From: a virus
DNA length: 49,819 nucleotides
Virus record (IMG/VR): IMGVR_UViG_3300042197_001264
Location: 1-49,819 of that record
Direction: 5' to 3' (one strand)
Shown: positions 2,031 to 49,819 of the stretch, in pieces
How positions within the stretch are numbered: the first letter of the stretch is position 1
How the letters are laid out: the number at the start of each line of letters is the position of its first letter
Translations under genes and position numbers: made by a program
Notes under the pieces: generated by a model
The model's input: the letters and a program-made list of their open reading frames with translations, nothing else
Databases searched by the model: none
Told to the model about the DNA's origin: nothing

Positions 2031-3182
2031 TCAGGTGATTGTGTTTTCTTCAATGGCGAAAGAACGGTTGCTCGACAGAGCGGCAGATACAGTAGTCCAT
2101 GATGTCACTGCCCCAATTTGAACAGGGCTAGAAACGCTGACAACAGTTCCGTCCCCAAGCGCACCATCGGCATTCGACCCCCATGACCACAACGTGCCAT
2201 TCGTTCTGGTAGCAACGCAGTGATTGTTTCCGCGATCAGCATTAAGCCAGTCGGTAAGCGCCCCGACCTGAACAGGGCTAGACCTATCTATTAGGTTGTT
2301 TTGACCAAGTTGTCCTAATTGATTTCTACCCCAAACCCACAAGGTGCCGTCCGTTTTTACTGCGATAGAACCGTTTTCACCACGTCCAACTTTGCTCCAT
2401 GTTGTCAAAGCCCCGATTTGAACTGGACTGGATTTGGTAACAACAGTGCCGTCACCAAGTCTGCCGTTTCCGTTATTTCCCCAAGACCACAGTGTTCCGT
2501 CCGTCTTGATGGCAAAAGTGCAATCTCCACTGGCTGCTTGTACATAAGACCAGTCAGTAAGTGCGCCAATTTGAACAGGGCTAGATTTGCTGACGTCGGT
2601 GTTGTCGCCAAGCCTTCCACTGGTGTTATTGCCCCAAGCCCACAGTGTTCCGTCCGTCTTGATGGCGAGAGAATGCACTGCGGCTGACGCTTGCGCCCAG
2701 TTTGTTAGCGCGCCGACCTGAACAGGGCTAGAACGCGCTAAACCATCTCCGAGCCCAAGCAATCCTGCGCTGTTTACACCCCATGACCACAATGTGTTAT
2801 TGTTTTGCACACCAAGGCAAAAGTATCCGCCCGCAGAAATCTGAGACCAATTAGTCAAAGCGCCAATCTGGACAGGGCTGGAGCGGGAGACGACAGTGCC
2901 GTCTCCGAGTTGGCCGTTGTCATTACTGCCCCAAGTCCAAATGGTTCCATCTGTTTTCTTGGCCCCTGTAAAACTCCTACCAGCCGATACATTTTCCCAA
3001 GTCTTCAAGGCACCAACTTGTGCCGGGCTTGACCTAGAAACACCTACGTCATTTTGTCCAAGTTGGCCAAAATTATTAAACCCCCACCCGTAAAGTTCAT
3101 ACAGAGTCACCCCCGTCCACCGCCCCGCAGCGATGGCCTGCACCTGATCCTTCAGATCCCATACTCCGGAGAAATTAGGCAT
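2031..3182 (-). CDS. RCC1-type seven-bladed beta-propeller virion protein
   Basis: The 383-aa product has a short phage-like N-terminus (MPNFSGVWDLKDQ...) of about 30 residues. It is followed by seven repeats of about 50 residues, each with an SSPVQVGAL-type turn, a KTDGTLWSWG-type strand and a GxLG end. Seven WG(x)N units make one complete RCC1/BLIP-II-like propeller. Such propellers are known in fibre or decoration proteins of aquatic phages, where they presumably bind a receptor or glycan; that role is inferred. No enzymatic residues are seen. The repeats are clearly more AT-rich than the flanking genes, pointing to a separately acquired module. The ATG at 3182 follows the stop of the preceding propeller gene by one base. 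Confidence 0.8.
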   Translation of the reverse strand: MPNFSGVWDLKDQVQAIAAGRWTGVTLYELYGWGFNNFGQLGQNDVGVSRSSPAQVGALKTWENVSAGRSFTGAKKTDGTIWTWGSNDNGQLGDGTVVSRSSPVQIGALTNWSQISAGGYFCLGVQNNNTLWSWGVNSAGLLGLGDGLARSSPVQVGALTNWAQASAAVHSLAIKTDGTLWAWGNNTSGRLGDNTDVSKSSPVQIGALTDWSYVQAASGDCTFAIKTDGTLWSWGNNGNGRLGDGTVVTKSSPVQIGALTTWSKVGRGENGSIAVKTDGTLWVWGRNQLGQLGQNNLIDRSSPVQVGALTDWLNADRGNNHCVATRTNGTLWSWGSNADGALGDGTVVSVSSPVQIGAVTSWTTVSAALSSNRSFAIEENTIT

Positions 3183-3183
3183 T

Positions 3184-4581
3184 CTAGACTAACTCCAAAG
3201 CAAACGTTGCGACGCCCGAGGAGCCCGCAATGTGCAGTGCGAACCAGTTTGTCGAAGAGCCAATTTGAACAGGGCTGGATTTATTTACACGGGTATTGTC
3301 GCCGACCTGACCATAATTATTATTACCCCATTTCCATAACGTGCCGTCTGTCTTTACTGCGCCTGAACTACTACCACCACAAGAAGCCTGAGACCAAGTT
3401 GTTAACACCCCGAGCTGAACGGGGCTGTTTCTATTAGACGTTGTGTTATCCCCAACAGCACCAGCAAAGTTCGAACCCCAACCCCACAACGTGCCATCTG
3501 TCTTTACCGCAATTGTTGTCGAGTCACCTGATGAAAACTGAGACCAGTCTGTCAATGAACCAACCTGAACAGGGCTGGATCTGCTGGTACTGACACCAAT
3601 GCCGAGACATCCAGCAGTGTTTATGCCCCACGACCACAGCGTCCCATCAGTTTTGATGGCAAGACTAAAGTTTGTTCCAGAGGATACCTTGGACCATGTT
3701 GTCAAAGCGCCAATTTGAACAGGGCTAGAACGGTTAATTACAGTGTTGTCGCCGAGGCAGCCGGCGGTGTTTCTGCCCCACGACCACAGAGTCCCATCCG
3801 TCTTGACGGCGGTGGTGTGGTAGTTACCCGCCGAAACCGTGGACCAATTGGTAAGAGCGCCAATTTGAACTGGGCTGGATTTGTCAATAACGGTTCCATC
3901 ACCGAGGCGGCCAGAGTCGTTCCACCCCCACGACCACAGAGTCCCATCTGTTTTAACAGAGGAGGCATGAGAACTACCAAGTGATAACTCGTACCAATTC
4001 GTTAAAATGCCAATTTGGATAGGGCTTGATCTATAGTTCTGTGTGCCGTCCCCTAGCTTTCCGAGGTTGCCTGCGCCCCACATCCACAGACTCCCGTCAG
4101 TCTTTATAGCACCACTAGCGCTGCTGCCATAGCCGCCGGGAAGTTTAGACCAATTGCTTAAAGCTCCAACTTGAACAGGGCTAGAACGGTTAATTACAGT
4201 GTTGTCGCCGAGGCCGCCGGCGGTGTTTCTGCCCCACGCATACAACTCCGCCCCAGAGTAGACCACGTTCCCCGTATCATACTCCGTCAGCCGCCCCGGC
4301 CCGTAGGCGTTCAGCGCCTGCATCCTGATCTTGAACGTGCCGCCAGCAGGAGGCGTCACCGTGATCGGCGAAGCAGACCCCGTAGCCCCCGTCGAAGCGC
4401 CACTGCTCTCGTCAACAGCCGTCACCACATAGGACGACACAGCCGCATCGCCCACATCAGTCGGCGCTGTGAAGGCAACGGTCGCCGAGCCGATGCTCGT
4501 CGTGATCGAGGTGATCGTCGGTTCGTCAGGCGTGCTCAGAAGCGTGAAGGCACTGAGCGTCCCGCCGGGTGTGCGAGCCAT
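3184..4581 (-). CDS. Fibronectin type III plus RCC1 beta-propeller virion protein
   Basis: The 465-aa product begins with a fibronectin type III-like domain (about 12-110: PDEPTITSITTS, SYVVTAVDESSG, FKIRMQALNAYGPG). Seven RCC1-type repeats follow (LYAWGRN, MWGAGN, SWGWN, SWGRN, SWGIN, GWGSN, KWGNN), again one full seven-bladed propeller. Fn3 domains are common in structural proteins of tailed phages. Here the Fn3 part likely anchors the propeller to the tail and the propeller contacts the host; this is inference. GC drops sharply at the Fn3/propeller boundary near 4240. The gene is a tandem paralogue of the next propeller gene and shares near-identical DNA within its own repeats. Confidence 0.8.
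   Translation of the reverse strand: MARTPGGTLSAFTLLSTPDEPTITSITTSIGSATVAFTAPTDVGDAAVSSYVVTAVDESSGASTGATGSASPITVTPPAGGTFKIRMQALNAYGPGRLTEYDTGNVVYSGAELYAWGRNTAGGLGDNTVINRSSPVQVGALSNWSKLPGGYGSSASGAIKTDGSLWMWGAGNLGKLGDGTQNYRSSPIQIGILTNWYELSLGSSHASSVKTDGTLWSWGWNDSGRLGDGTVIDKSSPVQIGALTNWSTVSAGNYHTTAVKTDGTLWSWGRNTAGCLGDNTVINRSSPVQIGALTTWSKVSSGTNFSLAIKTDGTLWSWGINTAGCLGIGVSTSRSSPVQVGSLTDWSQFSSGDSTTIAVKTDGTLWGWGSNFAGAVGDNTTSNRNSPVQLGVLTTWSQASCGGSSSGAVKTDGTLWKWGNNNYGQVGDNTRVNKSSPVQIGSSTNWFALHIAGSSGVATFALELV
3715..4238 (-). repeat. Two near-identical 68-bp copies inside the RCC1 array
   Basis: Positions 3715-3782 and 4171-4238 are the same 68-bp stretch with a single visible mismatch. They encode the turn SSPVQ(I/V)GAL and the strand NTVINRSS in blades 1 and 4 of the same propeller. 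The other blades are far more diverged at DNA level, so this pair reflects recent duplication or gene conversion between blades. Confidence 0.8.
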
Positions 4582-47205: not shown

Positions 47206-48404
47206 CAGAATGTGCCCCCGTTCACGACGCCGGCGGGGGCGACACCGAGGGCAGTCCACGCGGCATTCTGGTCAACCGCCGTGAACAGCGCGATGCCGGT
47301 CGTCGTGCCGCCCAGATTGATGCGAGCGCCGCTAGCCGTCGTCGCCCCCGTGCCACCCTGATTGACCAGCACCGGGATCGACACCGTCGACGTGTCGGCG
47401 TCCAGCATGTCGGTGCCGTCAGAGTAGAGGATCGCGCGCGAACCTTGGTTGACCGTGACGCCGCCGCCGCCCGTCACCTTCACGTCGAGGGTGAACGACC
47501 CCGTCGTCTGGTTGTCGACCCAATACTGCTGCACCGTCGCCGGGCAGATGATGTTCCGATTCCCCGTCAACGTCCCCGTGAAGCGGTAGGCGATGCGGTT
47601 GAGTTCGGTCCCCGTCAGCGTGTAATCGCCCGTCCCCGAAACGTCGATCACGGTGTAGTCGAAGGCGAAGGTCGCGTTCTGGCCGAAGCCGATCGTGTAG
47701 TAGTCGGTGCCGTCGCTCGCGATGATTGCAGACTCGCCCGGCTGGAAGGCCAGCGTCGAGTTGCCGTCGATCTCGGACGTGCCCGGGGCGTCGGCCACGA
47801 TGTTGCCGCTGCCGCTGTTGCGCAGGTAGATGAACCAGTTGTTGCCCACGACCACCGGGTCCGGCAGCGTCAGCGTGCCCGCCCCGCCCGTCCAGTTGAA
47901 CATTTCGGCTCGGTCGCTCGAGCCCGCCGTGTAGTTGCTGTTGAAGGTGACGATCGGCACCGACTGACTGAGCAGCGTGCCCACGGCCACGATGCCAGTG
48001 CCAGCCAGCGCAGAGGCGTTCGCCGTCGACGTCGTGGCGCCATACTGCAGCGCACGCCATGTGCCGGCCGCCGTCGAGTTGTTGGCGACGTAGACCTGCC
48101 ACAGCGTGCCGGCGGCGATCGTGACGACCTGCGTGCCGACGGCGTTGCGCACCGTGAAGGTGTCCGAGCCGCGGTTGTTGAACAGGATCGTGTTGCCGGT
48201 GCCGGTCTTGTCGGCATCGGGCAGGATGATGCTGAAGCCGGCACCCGAAGGCGTAACGTCGATGATGCGGGTGGCGAGGTTCGTGTTGGTCGAGGTCTCT
48301 TCCGGCCAGCTCAGGGTGACGTCGGCCGACAAGGCGATGGCGCTGTAGCTGATCTCGCTCGGGTAGATGTTCGCGCCGCCGAAGACATCGGTGTAGATGG
48401 GCAT
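47205..48404 (-). CDS. Fibre or tail spike protein (399 aa)
   Basis: The product starts MPIYTDVFGGANIYPSEISY, a tail-attachment type N-terminus. Beta-rich Thr/Asn/Gly repeats follow (ATRIIDVTPSGAGFSIILPD, WFIYLRNSGSGNIVADAPG, STLAFQPGESAIIASDGTDY). Near the end NQGGTGATTASGARINLGGT resembles collar motifs of fibres, and the last residues are VVNGGTF. No lyase or hydrolase signature is seen. It lies between adaptor and gp10-like genes, where the main tail fibre of podophages is often found. Host recognition is inferred. Confidence 0.75.
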   Translation of the reverse strand: MPIYTDVFGGANIYPSEISYSAIALSADVTLSWPEETSTNTNLATRIIDVTPSGAGFSIILPDADKTGTGNTILFNNRGSDTFTVRNAVGTQVVTIAAGTLWQVYVANNSTAAGTWRALQYGATTSTANASALAGTGIVAVGTLLSQSVPIVTFNSNYTAGSSDRAEMFNWTGGAGTLTLPDPVVVGNNWFIYLRNSGSGNIVADAPGTSEIDGNSTLAFQPGESAIIASDGTDYYTIGFGQNATFAFDYTVIDVSGTGDYTLTGTELNRIAYRFTGTLTGNRNIICPATVQQYWVDNQTTGSFTLDVKVTGGGGVTVNQGSRAILYSDGTDMLDADTSTVSIPVLVNQGGTGATTASGARINLGGTTTGIALFTAVDQNAAWTALGVAPAGVVNGGTF

Positions 48405-49036
48405 CAGGCCTCACTCCTCTGCGCTGACCGATCCAGAATGCGCTTCAGGTCTTCGCCGTTCAGGGCCTGCGCGGCGCGGTCATACATTGCCTGCCAAGTC
48501 GGGATCCGCTCGTCGTTCTTCAGGAACGGGGTTGCCTCGAGCAGCGTGGCATAGGTCAGGACATCGGGCGCGTACTCGGTCAGCCAGTTCACCTGCAGAT
48601 CATCGCCCAGCAGCGCCGGCTGCTCGTAATAGAGGATTTCCAGCGTGTCGGCCGCCGCTGGGGACGGCGTGATCAACCAGTGCTGGTAGTCGTAGTCGGC
48701 GTAGAACTGCGGCGTGCCCGTCTCGGCCTCGTCGGGCCAATACTTGCGGCAATACTCGTACGAGCGCGCGAAGATCGGCGAGCCGTTGATCGTCATGCTG
48801 ATCGTGTCGCGCCACCGATCCGGCTTGAGGTAAACCGCGACACCGACCTGCAGCGGCGTCTGCACCGCGCGGATGAAGCCCGAGATCTTCAGCTCGCGCG
48901 CAATCCTGCGCTCGGCCAAAGTGATCAGACGCGGCAACTGATCATAGACGATCTGGTCGCTCTCGGCGGTGAAGCCCCGCTCAAGATACCGACGGACGTC
49001 CGTCAGCAGGCTGTCGTATGTCATACTGTAGGCCAT
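48404..49036 (-). CDS. Head-tail adaptor-like protein (210 aa)
   Basis: The start is ATG 49036 with GGAG upstream; an in-frame start at 49072 is less likely. The product MAYSMTYDSLLTDVRRYLER, with IVYDQLPRLITLAERRIARE, FYADYDYQHWLITPSPAAAD and TLEILYYEQP, matches the small head-tail joining proteins common in environmental podophages. It probably forms a ring below the portal. The gene begins just after a leftward promoter at 49,087-49,115. Confidence 0.7.
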   Translation of the reverse strand: MAYSMTYDSLLTDVRRYLERGFTAESDQIVYDQLPRLITLAERRIARELKISGFIRAVQTPLQVGVAVYLKPDRWRDTISMTINGSPIFARSYEYCRKYWPDEAETGTPQFYADYDYQHWLITPSPAAADTLEILYYEQPALLGDDLQVNWLTEYAPDVLTYATLLEATPFLKNDERIPTWQAMYDRAAQALNGEDLKRILDRSAQRSEA

Positions 49037-49077
49037 GACCACTCCATAGATGATCAGCAGCTGATACAGCATGCGCC

Positions 49078-49133: not shown

Positions 49134-49819
49134 TTAACCGAGCAGTTTGCCCAGCGTCTTGGGGCCCGCAACGCCGTCAGGTGTCAGCCCTTGGCTTTGC
49201 TGCCACGCGCGGAGGGCTTTTTCGGTGCCGGGGCCGAAGCTGCCGTCGGCTGTGATACCGAGGGCTTTTTGGAGAGCGGCGACTTCTGCGCCACGGCTTC
49301 CAACGCGGAGGACTTGAGATCCTCCACTTTGTCCTTGATCGCCTCCTCCACCTTGTCCTCGATCTTGTCGATCACCTTCCCCGCCACCGCTTCCACGATC
49401 ATTCCCTGCGGGGTTTTGCCCAGCAAGGACCGCAAGAGCTTCATCATAACGCTTTCTCCTATCCGGCAGGCCGATGTCCCCGCCATTGATGATCTTCGTG
49501 ACCTTCGCAACGTCGCCCGTGTCAGCCACTTCGTTCAACTTGCGACTGTCCCAAAACCAAAGCGCAGAGACAAGCGCACCTTCCTTTGTCGTCAGATACT
49601 CAGCAGCCTCTTCGGCTGTCTTGCCGATTGCCTTGCCAAAGGTAGTATAGTTGGAGCGGCCTGTCACTTGCTTCAAGCCGCGACCGCGAAACCGCCAGCC
49701 GTCGCCCTCTTGGACGTTGCCAAGAGCGCCACCCTTCGAGCGGAACTCGTCCATGTAGACGTAGTTCGCGATCTTCTCTGGCTTGCGAGCATACTCGTTC
49801 GCATTGCGCTTGTTGGCAC
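49134..49819 (-). CDS. Endolysin: GH19 domain plus peptidoglycan-binding domain, N-terminus outside window
   Basis: The frame is open to the right edge; 227 residues are visible. The first 130 match glycoside hydrolase 19 (chitinase/lysozyme type): GDGWRFRGRGLKQVTGRSNY, ALWFWDSRKLNEVAD, IINGGDIGLPDRRKRYDEAL. Catalytic Glu residues usually lie further N-terminal and are not all visible. After a Gly/Asp/Gln linker, residues about 172-227 form a PG_binding_1 domain (VGSRGAEVAALQKALGITAD, QGLTPDGVAGPKTLGKLLG). It degrades the cell wall at lysis. The linker and part of the binding domain are shared, in another frame, with an embedded ORF at 49,184-49,447. Confidence 0.8.
   Translation of the reverse strand, partial: ANKRNANEYARKPEKIANYVYMDEFRSKGGALGNVQEGDGWRFRGRGLKQVTGRSNYTTFGKAIGKTAEEAAEYLTTKEGALVSALWFWDSRKLNEVADTGDVAKVTKIINGGDIGLPDRRKRYDEALAVLAGQNPAGNDRGSGGGEGDRQDRGQGGGGDQGQSGGSQVLRVGSRGAEVAALQKALGITADGSFGPGTEKALRAWQQSQGLTPDGVAGPKTLGKLLG
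49184..49447 (-). CDS. 87-aa ORF embedded in another frame of the endolysin gene
   Basis: The ORF starts at ATG 49447 (tandem with ATG 49444) behind AGGAGAAAGCGTT, a near-ideal ribosome site with eight-base spacing. The product MMKLLRSLLGKTPQGMIVEA continues VIDKIEDKVEEAIKDKVEDL, a regular amphipathic helix, then a Lys/Pro/Ala-rich basic tail. It has no membrane segment. It starts where the GH19 domain ends and spans the linker and most of the peptidoglycan-binding domain. The endolysin frame over this stretch is unusually Gly/Asp/Gln-rich, as expected if this frame is constrained. Function unknown; lysis timing is one guess. Confidence 0.5.
   Translation of the reverse strand: MMKLLRSLLGKTPQGMIVEAVAGKVIDKIEDKVEEAIKDKVEDLKSSALEAVAQKSPLSKKPSVSQPTAASAPAPKKPSARGSKAKG
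49456..49460 (-). promoter_or_regulatory. Shine-Dalgarno of the embedded ORF inside the endolysin gene
   Basis: AGGAG on the minus strand, eight bases before ATG 49447. In the endolysin frame the same bases encode part of DRRKRYDEAL, which is conserved in GH19 proteins, so the site may be partly fortuitous. Confidence 0.5.

Follow-up and report, generated by a model that had tools for sequence, protein, structure and literature searches.

An out-of-frame gene conserved within a phage GH19 endolysin gene, a probable counterpart of a standalone lysis-cassette gene

The stretch of viral DNA analysed here, referred to below as the window, comprises the 49,819 nucleotides of IMG/VR record IMGVR_UViG_3300042197_001264, at the end of which lies a gene for a modular endolysin whose catalytic part matches phrog_181 (GH19). 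An open reading frame in another frame of the same strand is embedded in this gene (Table 1), with its codon positions 1, 2 and 3 corresponding to endolysin positions 2, 3 and the next 1. Its ATG is formed from the endolysin Tyr codon TAT together with the G of the next codon (Tyr-Asp), inside ..DRRKRYDEALAVLAG.., and its ribosome site, AGGAGA, consists of two rare Arg codons (AGG AGA) of the GH19 motif DRR(K/R)RY. An earlier note, made from these letters alone, had described the AGGAGAAAGCGTT-ATG-ATG start, the coordinates, the 87 codons, an amphipathic helix and a basic Pro/Lys tail, all of which were confirmed when re-read from the sequence; it had also placed the start exactly where the GH19 domain ends, which needs correction, as the ATG lies in the last GH19 helix, approximately 10-15 residues before the catalytic match ends. 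The second ATG of the window's ORF is variable, the start reading ATGTTC in half of the relatives. At the other end of the window (2034-4581, minus strand) two adjacent genes with RCC1-like repeats (phrog_4219) were observed.

Table 1. Features of the endolysin locus, in positions of the window
Feature	Position	Strand	Remark
Host gene: GH19 endolysin with C-terminal PG_binding_1 domain; 5' end lost at record end	49134..49819	-	
PG_binding_1 domain	49143..49277	-	PF01471, E 1.5e-13
Nested gene, 87-aa ORF in endolysin frame +1 (MMKLLRSLLGKTPQGMIVEAVAGKVIDKIEDKVEEAIKDKVEDLKSSALEAVAQKSPLSKKPSVSQPTAASAPAPKKPSARGSKAKG)	49184..49447	-	Conserved ORF, frame-specific selection
Shine-Dalgarno AGGAGA, 7 bases 5' of nested ATG	49455..49460	-	Identical in 8/8 sequences
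Overlap part 1, 44 endolysin codons: Gly/Asp/Gln linker = nested helical N-terminal half	49314..49445	-	Nested frame constrained
Overlap part 2, 43 codons: PG-binding domain start = nested Pro/Lys/Ser tail	49185..49313	-	Mainly endolysin frame constrained
Next downstream gene, virion structural protein (context only)	48404..49072	-	phrog_2941

The length of the nested ORF was rejected as an argument for a gene. When endolysin codons were resampled synonymously, the frame stayed open in 13,042 of 20,000 trials (65%), and it did so in all 20,000 permutations of the codons; the length is within chance and is no evidence for a gene. What sets the ORF beyond chance is its conservation. A scan of IMG/VR with the nested protein identified 11 further contigs, carrying seven further distinct sequences, in all of which a GH19 endolysin gene carries the ORF at the same place; ATG, ribosome site and length are unchanged, and protein identity over the full length is 67-93%. 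The AGG-AGA pair at the ribosome site, which the codon use of the window's genome would give for Arg-Arg in approximately 0.4% of cases, was retained in each of the eight distinct sequences. Endolysins with 49-67% identity (L022-L097) keep the binding domain and differ in their linkers, and the nested ORF with its ribosome site was absent from these. The earlier note would have counted as a refutation homologues that keep the PG-binding domain while lacking a start or ribosome site in the nested frame; such homologues do exist at 67% identity and below, but the GH19 tree described below points to a clade-specific gene and not to an artefact.

Substitution patterns among the eight sequences separate the two frames along the overlap. 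Across 123 GH19 codons, the variable columns at endolysin positions 1, 2 and 3 numbered 26, 21 and 103, while across the 44 linker codons they numbered 27, 14 and 1, across the next 43 codons 15, 14 and 24, and in the 16 codons past the nested stop 5, 5 and 14. In the linker no synonymous endolysin difference was found in any of the 28 pairs (from 0/20 up to 0/40 codons), compared to 29-54% outside the linker in the pairwise comparisons, and for every pair the +1 amino-acid identity in the linker exceeded both the mean and the maximum of endolysin-constrained simulations. Mean pN/pS in the linker half was 0.23 for the nested frame versus 25 for the endolysin frame, and in the second half 1.44 versus 0.47, with no sign of purifying selection on the nested frame over the tail. 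A reservation is that residues 1-11 of the nested protein are largely dictated by the conserved GH19 end. These frame-specific substitution patterns strongly support the suggestion of the earlier note that the embedded frame is under selection, as far as the linker half is concerned. On this evidence the overlapping nested ORF is a real coding gene, and selection follows whichever partner is structured on each side of the overlap. From the genetic code, +1-shifted Val, Ala, Glu, Asp and Lys codons would give the Gly/Arg/Ser content of the linker.

Two readings of this pattern do without a separate protein. That the nested ORF is a chance open frame in a GC-rich gene would agree with its unremarkable length and with the lack of an annotated match in phage databases, but the frame-specific selection across the eight sequences refutes this, and we give it practically no credence. 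It is very improbable, too, that the conservation is due to RNA structure, to a regulatory element or to the product of a programmed frameshift: RNA constraints alone could conserve third positions, and the +1 frame, being open for 21 codons before the ATG, would allow a frameshift product, but the changes in the linker keep the codon periodicity of the +1 frame (the 27, 14 and 1 columns given above) with a low pN/pS there, and a search of Rfam gave no match. The boundaries of the conserved stretch weigh in the same direction, since conservation begins at AGGAGA and at the ATG. Counted in bins, third-position variability was 7/10 before the ATG and 1/10 after it, falling to 0 in each of the three bins that follow; on the 5' side of the ATG only AGGAGA is frozen, the codons before it and those between it and the ATG being variable. 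Both observations agree better with separate initiation than with a frameshift product.

The nested protein is predicted to form a strongly amphipathic helix followed by a disordered basic tail, without transmembrane segment or Cys, with helices placed at residues 2-9 and 13-51 by a low-confidence structure model (mean pLDDT 58-59 for the models of this protein and of the standalone protein described below). No known family was found for it in PHROGs, Pfam, NCBIfam or the PDB sequences, and no relative among the isolate phages and bacterial genomes searched; matches to syntaxins were weak, look like helix similarity and were set aside. A holin or pinholin was rejected because there is no transmembrane segment (maximum 19-residue hydropathy 0.86), an embedded o-spanin of the Rz1 type because a protein without Cys has no lipobox, and an in-frame secondary endolysin product, as in Ms6 Lysin241 or CTP1L, because the nested start is in frame +1.

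A six-frame ORF search with the nested profile gave weak matches, most of them to one small gene located just upstream of the relatives' endolysins. This gene, here called A3, encodes 55-76 aa in the copies examined (MIGRMVGMLIGRKAKEKVVDAVLDKVNLPDPVENAIK...KKVPIKRPKK; for example L032 4044-4271) and overlaps the end of a two-TM gene that we label holin-like on hydropathy and position only. Behind A3 comes either a staphylococcal-nuclease-like gene or the endolysin itself; cassettes of the nested clade have one of these two genes immediately after the holin-like gene. The A3 protein is helical with a basic tail and, like the nested protein, it has no transmembrane segment, no Cys and a net charge of +6 to +7. 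The two are alike in size, charge, helices, basic tail and presence in a lysis cassette, and they are mutually exclusive; A3 differs in holding its own position behind the holin-like gene and in an extra middle segment with PDPVE and TGN motifs. In GenBank MW202675.1, neither A3 nor the adjacent holin-like gene is annotated.

Several further features of these cassettes were recorded. The holin-like gene (phrog_25359) and the overlapping A3 form a unit at L032 3766-4271, L029 5511-6004 and L178 2983-3416. The staphylococcal-nuclease-like gene has a signal-like N-terminus and lies beside the endolysin in many cassettes (L008 3939-4385; L032 4268-4669). A small conserved protein with a YRYxCQDPxxW...C.PP.C motif is encoded beside the holin-like gene (L008 3432-3668, L179 3741-3977, L180 2736-2948), being TM-anchored in some phages and carrying a lipobox-like LTGC or IAGC in others. 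In one related cassette (L180 3414-3905 and 3580-3816) there is what is probably an Rz/Rz1-type pair, the lipoprotein being nested in a different frame. At L065 2094-2844 the GH19 endolysin is interrupted close to the linker, giving one ORF of 212 aa and, in a different frame, a second one with the binding domain, which may be either a sequencing error or a real split. Finally, in other phages (L200, L229 and L254, at about 2900-3480) the proteins of the holin-like family end in a long Pro/Gly-rich tail, and a small partner gene is absent. Because of such longer-tailed versions without a partner in other lineages, we dropped the idea of a small partner being required by every holin-like gene of this kind: as holin-like genes of other phage lineages occur without either small gene, the pairing is lineage-specific. 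By way of speculation, the small protein may substitute for the longer holin-like tail of those lineages.

The nested gene conforms to the pattern of one small gene per cassette of holin-like gene, optional nuclease gene and GH19 endolysin. Among 40 cassettes with the holin-like gene, 33 carried the standalone gene and seven (distinct sequences) the nested one, and none carried both or neither. A standalone copy elsewhere was looked for in five contigs of the nested clade and in the window, and a relative of the nested type in eight contigs from the standalone clade; neither was found. In a GH19 tree rooted at the midpoint, the nested clade forms one group (86/97) within a clade supported at 100/99, in which the other cassettes carry the standalone gene. 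A single replacement of the standalone form by the nested form is the simplest history.

Whether the two genes share ancestry was approached through protein and DNA profiles. The protein comparisons were not significant (HMM E-values 0.24 to 8.7, hhalign probability 4-13%), but the HMM scores lay above nearly all composition shuffles. With a DNA profile of the first 160 bases of the nested ORF, searched against 76 loci of relatives, A3 ranked first and made up nearly all of the best 28 matches, the match being in coding frame (nested DKVEEAVxDKV versus A3 EKVVDAVLDKV); in the reverse search, covering the nested-clade loci and the whole window, the nested ORF ranked first. None of 800 codon-column shuffles reached the score of 19.8 bits anywhere in those loci, while block shuffles, which preserve short words, reached the DNA score in 8/322 and 1/202 cases (9/524 in all), so that convergence of two amphipathic helices could also yield it. 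The better local hhalign match and the DNA match fall on different parts of A3. Judged from these profiles, common ancestry of the nested and the standalone genes is likelier than its opposite, but unproven.

Two competing explanations accept the nested gene as a gene. According to one of them, it was born by de novo overprinting from the +1 frame of the linker, with no A3 ancestry, and came by convergence to the role of A3 or to another role. A +1 ATG exists already in relatives without the nested gene (L025), at the conserved Arg-Tyr-Ala/Gly codons, and the ease with which the +1 frame stays open in resampled endolysins and the non-significant profile-profile comparison with the A3 family would suit such an origin as well; against this stand the reciprocal DNA profile matches above the codon-composition controls, the protein scores above shuffles and the complementary distribution of nested and standalone genes, and we consider a de novo origin unlikely. 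The other explanation concerns the target: the nested product might act on the endolysin as a chaperone, inhibitor or subunit, by analogy with the small Gp1 protein of the mycobacteriophage Ms6 cassette, which binds the endolysin of that phage and helps in its export (PMC3111421), instead of acting on the holin-like protein. The position of the nested gene within the endolysin gene, with which it would be expressed, speaks for this possibility, but A3 in the relatives overlaps the holin-like gene and often has the nuclease gene between itself and the endolysin, so that a partner of the endolysin appears a possible but rather doubtful assignment.

We favour, at a probability of roughly 0.6, the reading that the nested gene is this clade's counterpart of the standalone lysis-cassette gene, which it replaced, and that its product tunes lysis. 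The arrangement in related phages, with the standalone gene directly behind and overlapping the two-TM holin-like gene, would represent the starting state. The standalone copy would then have been lost, with the nested gene filling its place. That the old gene was itself relocated, frame-shifted, into the domain linker of the adjacent endolysin, so that the two proteins came to split the constraint between them, has in our judgement an even chance. As the nested gene now stands, its ribosome site and start lie inside the last GH19 codons, its helical, functional half over the linker and its disordered basic tail over the start of the PG-binding domain; after a relocation, the long Gly-rich linker would be a by-product of the nested gene's codons.

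Most probably the product is an amphipathic helix protein, either soluble or located at the membrane surface, which would tune lysis via the holin-like protein or else via the endolysin. We infer from sequence both the translation of the nested frame and its role and target in lysis. Judged from the gene neighbourhood, the likeliest role would be that of an accessory protein with the holin-like protein as its target, such as an antiholin or other holin regulator, and action on the endolysin is the main alternative. Of the functions proposed in the earlier note, that of a lysis regulator or of a partner of the endolysin would agree with the cassette context, while for a capsid or envelope role the analysis gave no support.

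RNA phages (Sgl genes) and phiX174 (gene E) have lysis-related genes embedded in other genes in a different frame, whose products are membrane or cell-wall-synthesis toxins of tiny genomes; the nested gene described here, on the other hand, comes from a tailed phage with a dsDNA genome of about 50 kb or more. In the embedded spanin genes Rz/Rz1 of phage lambda, one lysis gene lies within the other in frame +1, and it has been proposed that embedded spanin forms could derive from separate ones, although no family with both forms was found (PMC6139136). The present pair is likewise a probable lysis gene in frame +1 of an established one, but the host gene is an endolysin and not an i-spanin, and the nested product has no lipobox, Cys or signal peptide. 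In Ms6, an internal start in lysA gives a shorter endolysin in frame, and gp1 overlaps the lysA start by its stop codon only (PMC3111421); a small accessory cassette protein tied to the endolysin and an internal start within the endolysin gene are features shared with our case, in which, unlike Ms6, the internal product is out of frame. For endolysins of the CTP1L type, a secondary in-frame cell-wall-binding product has been described (PMC4777826). A start for a second protein inside the endolysin gene, near the border of catalytic domain and linker, is common to both systems; there it has the same frame and domain, whereas here the predicted product is unrelated and read in a different frame. 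Searches of the open-access literature found no tailed-phage endolysin with a gene nested in it out of frame.

Annotation overlooks nested genes in tailed phages, and the linker of a modular endolysin usually passes for an inert spacer; in the present gene it is the stretch under the strongest constraint, owing to another protein. The nested clade and its standalone sister form offer a traceable case of a gene becoming nested in another, and the relocation, if true, would be a traceable transition of a lysis gene from a separate to an embedded form. The findings also point to an unnamed small accessory protein in the lysis cassette of many environmental phages.
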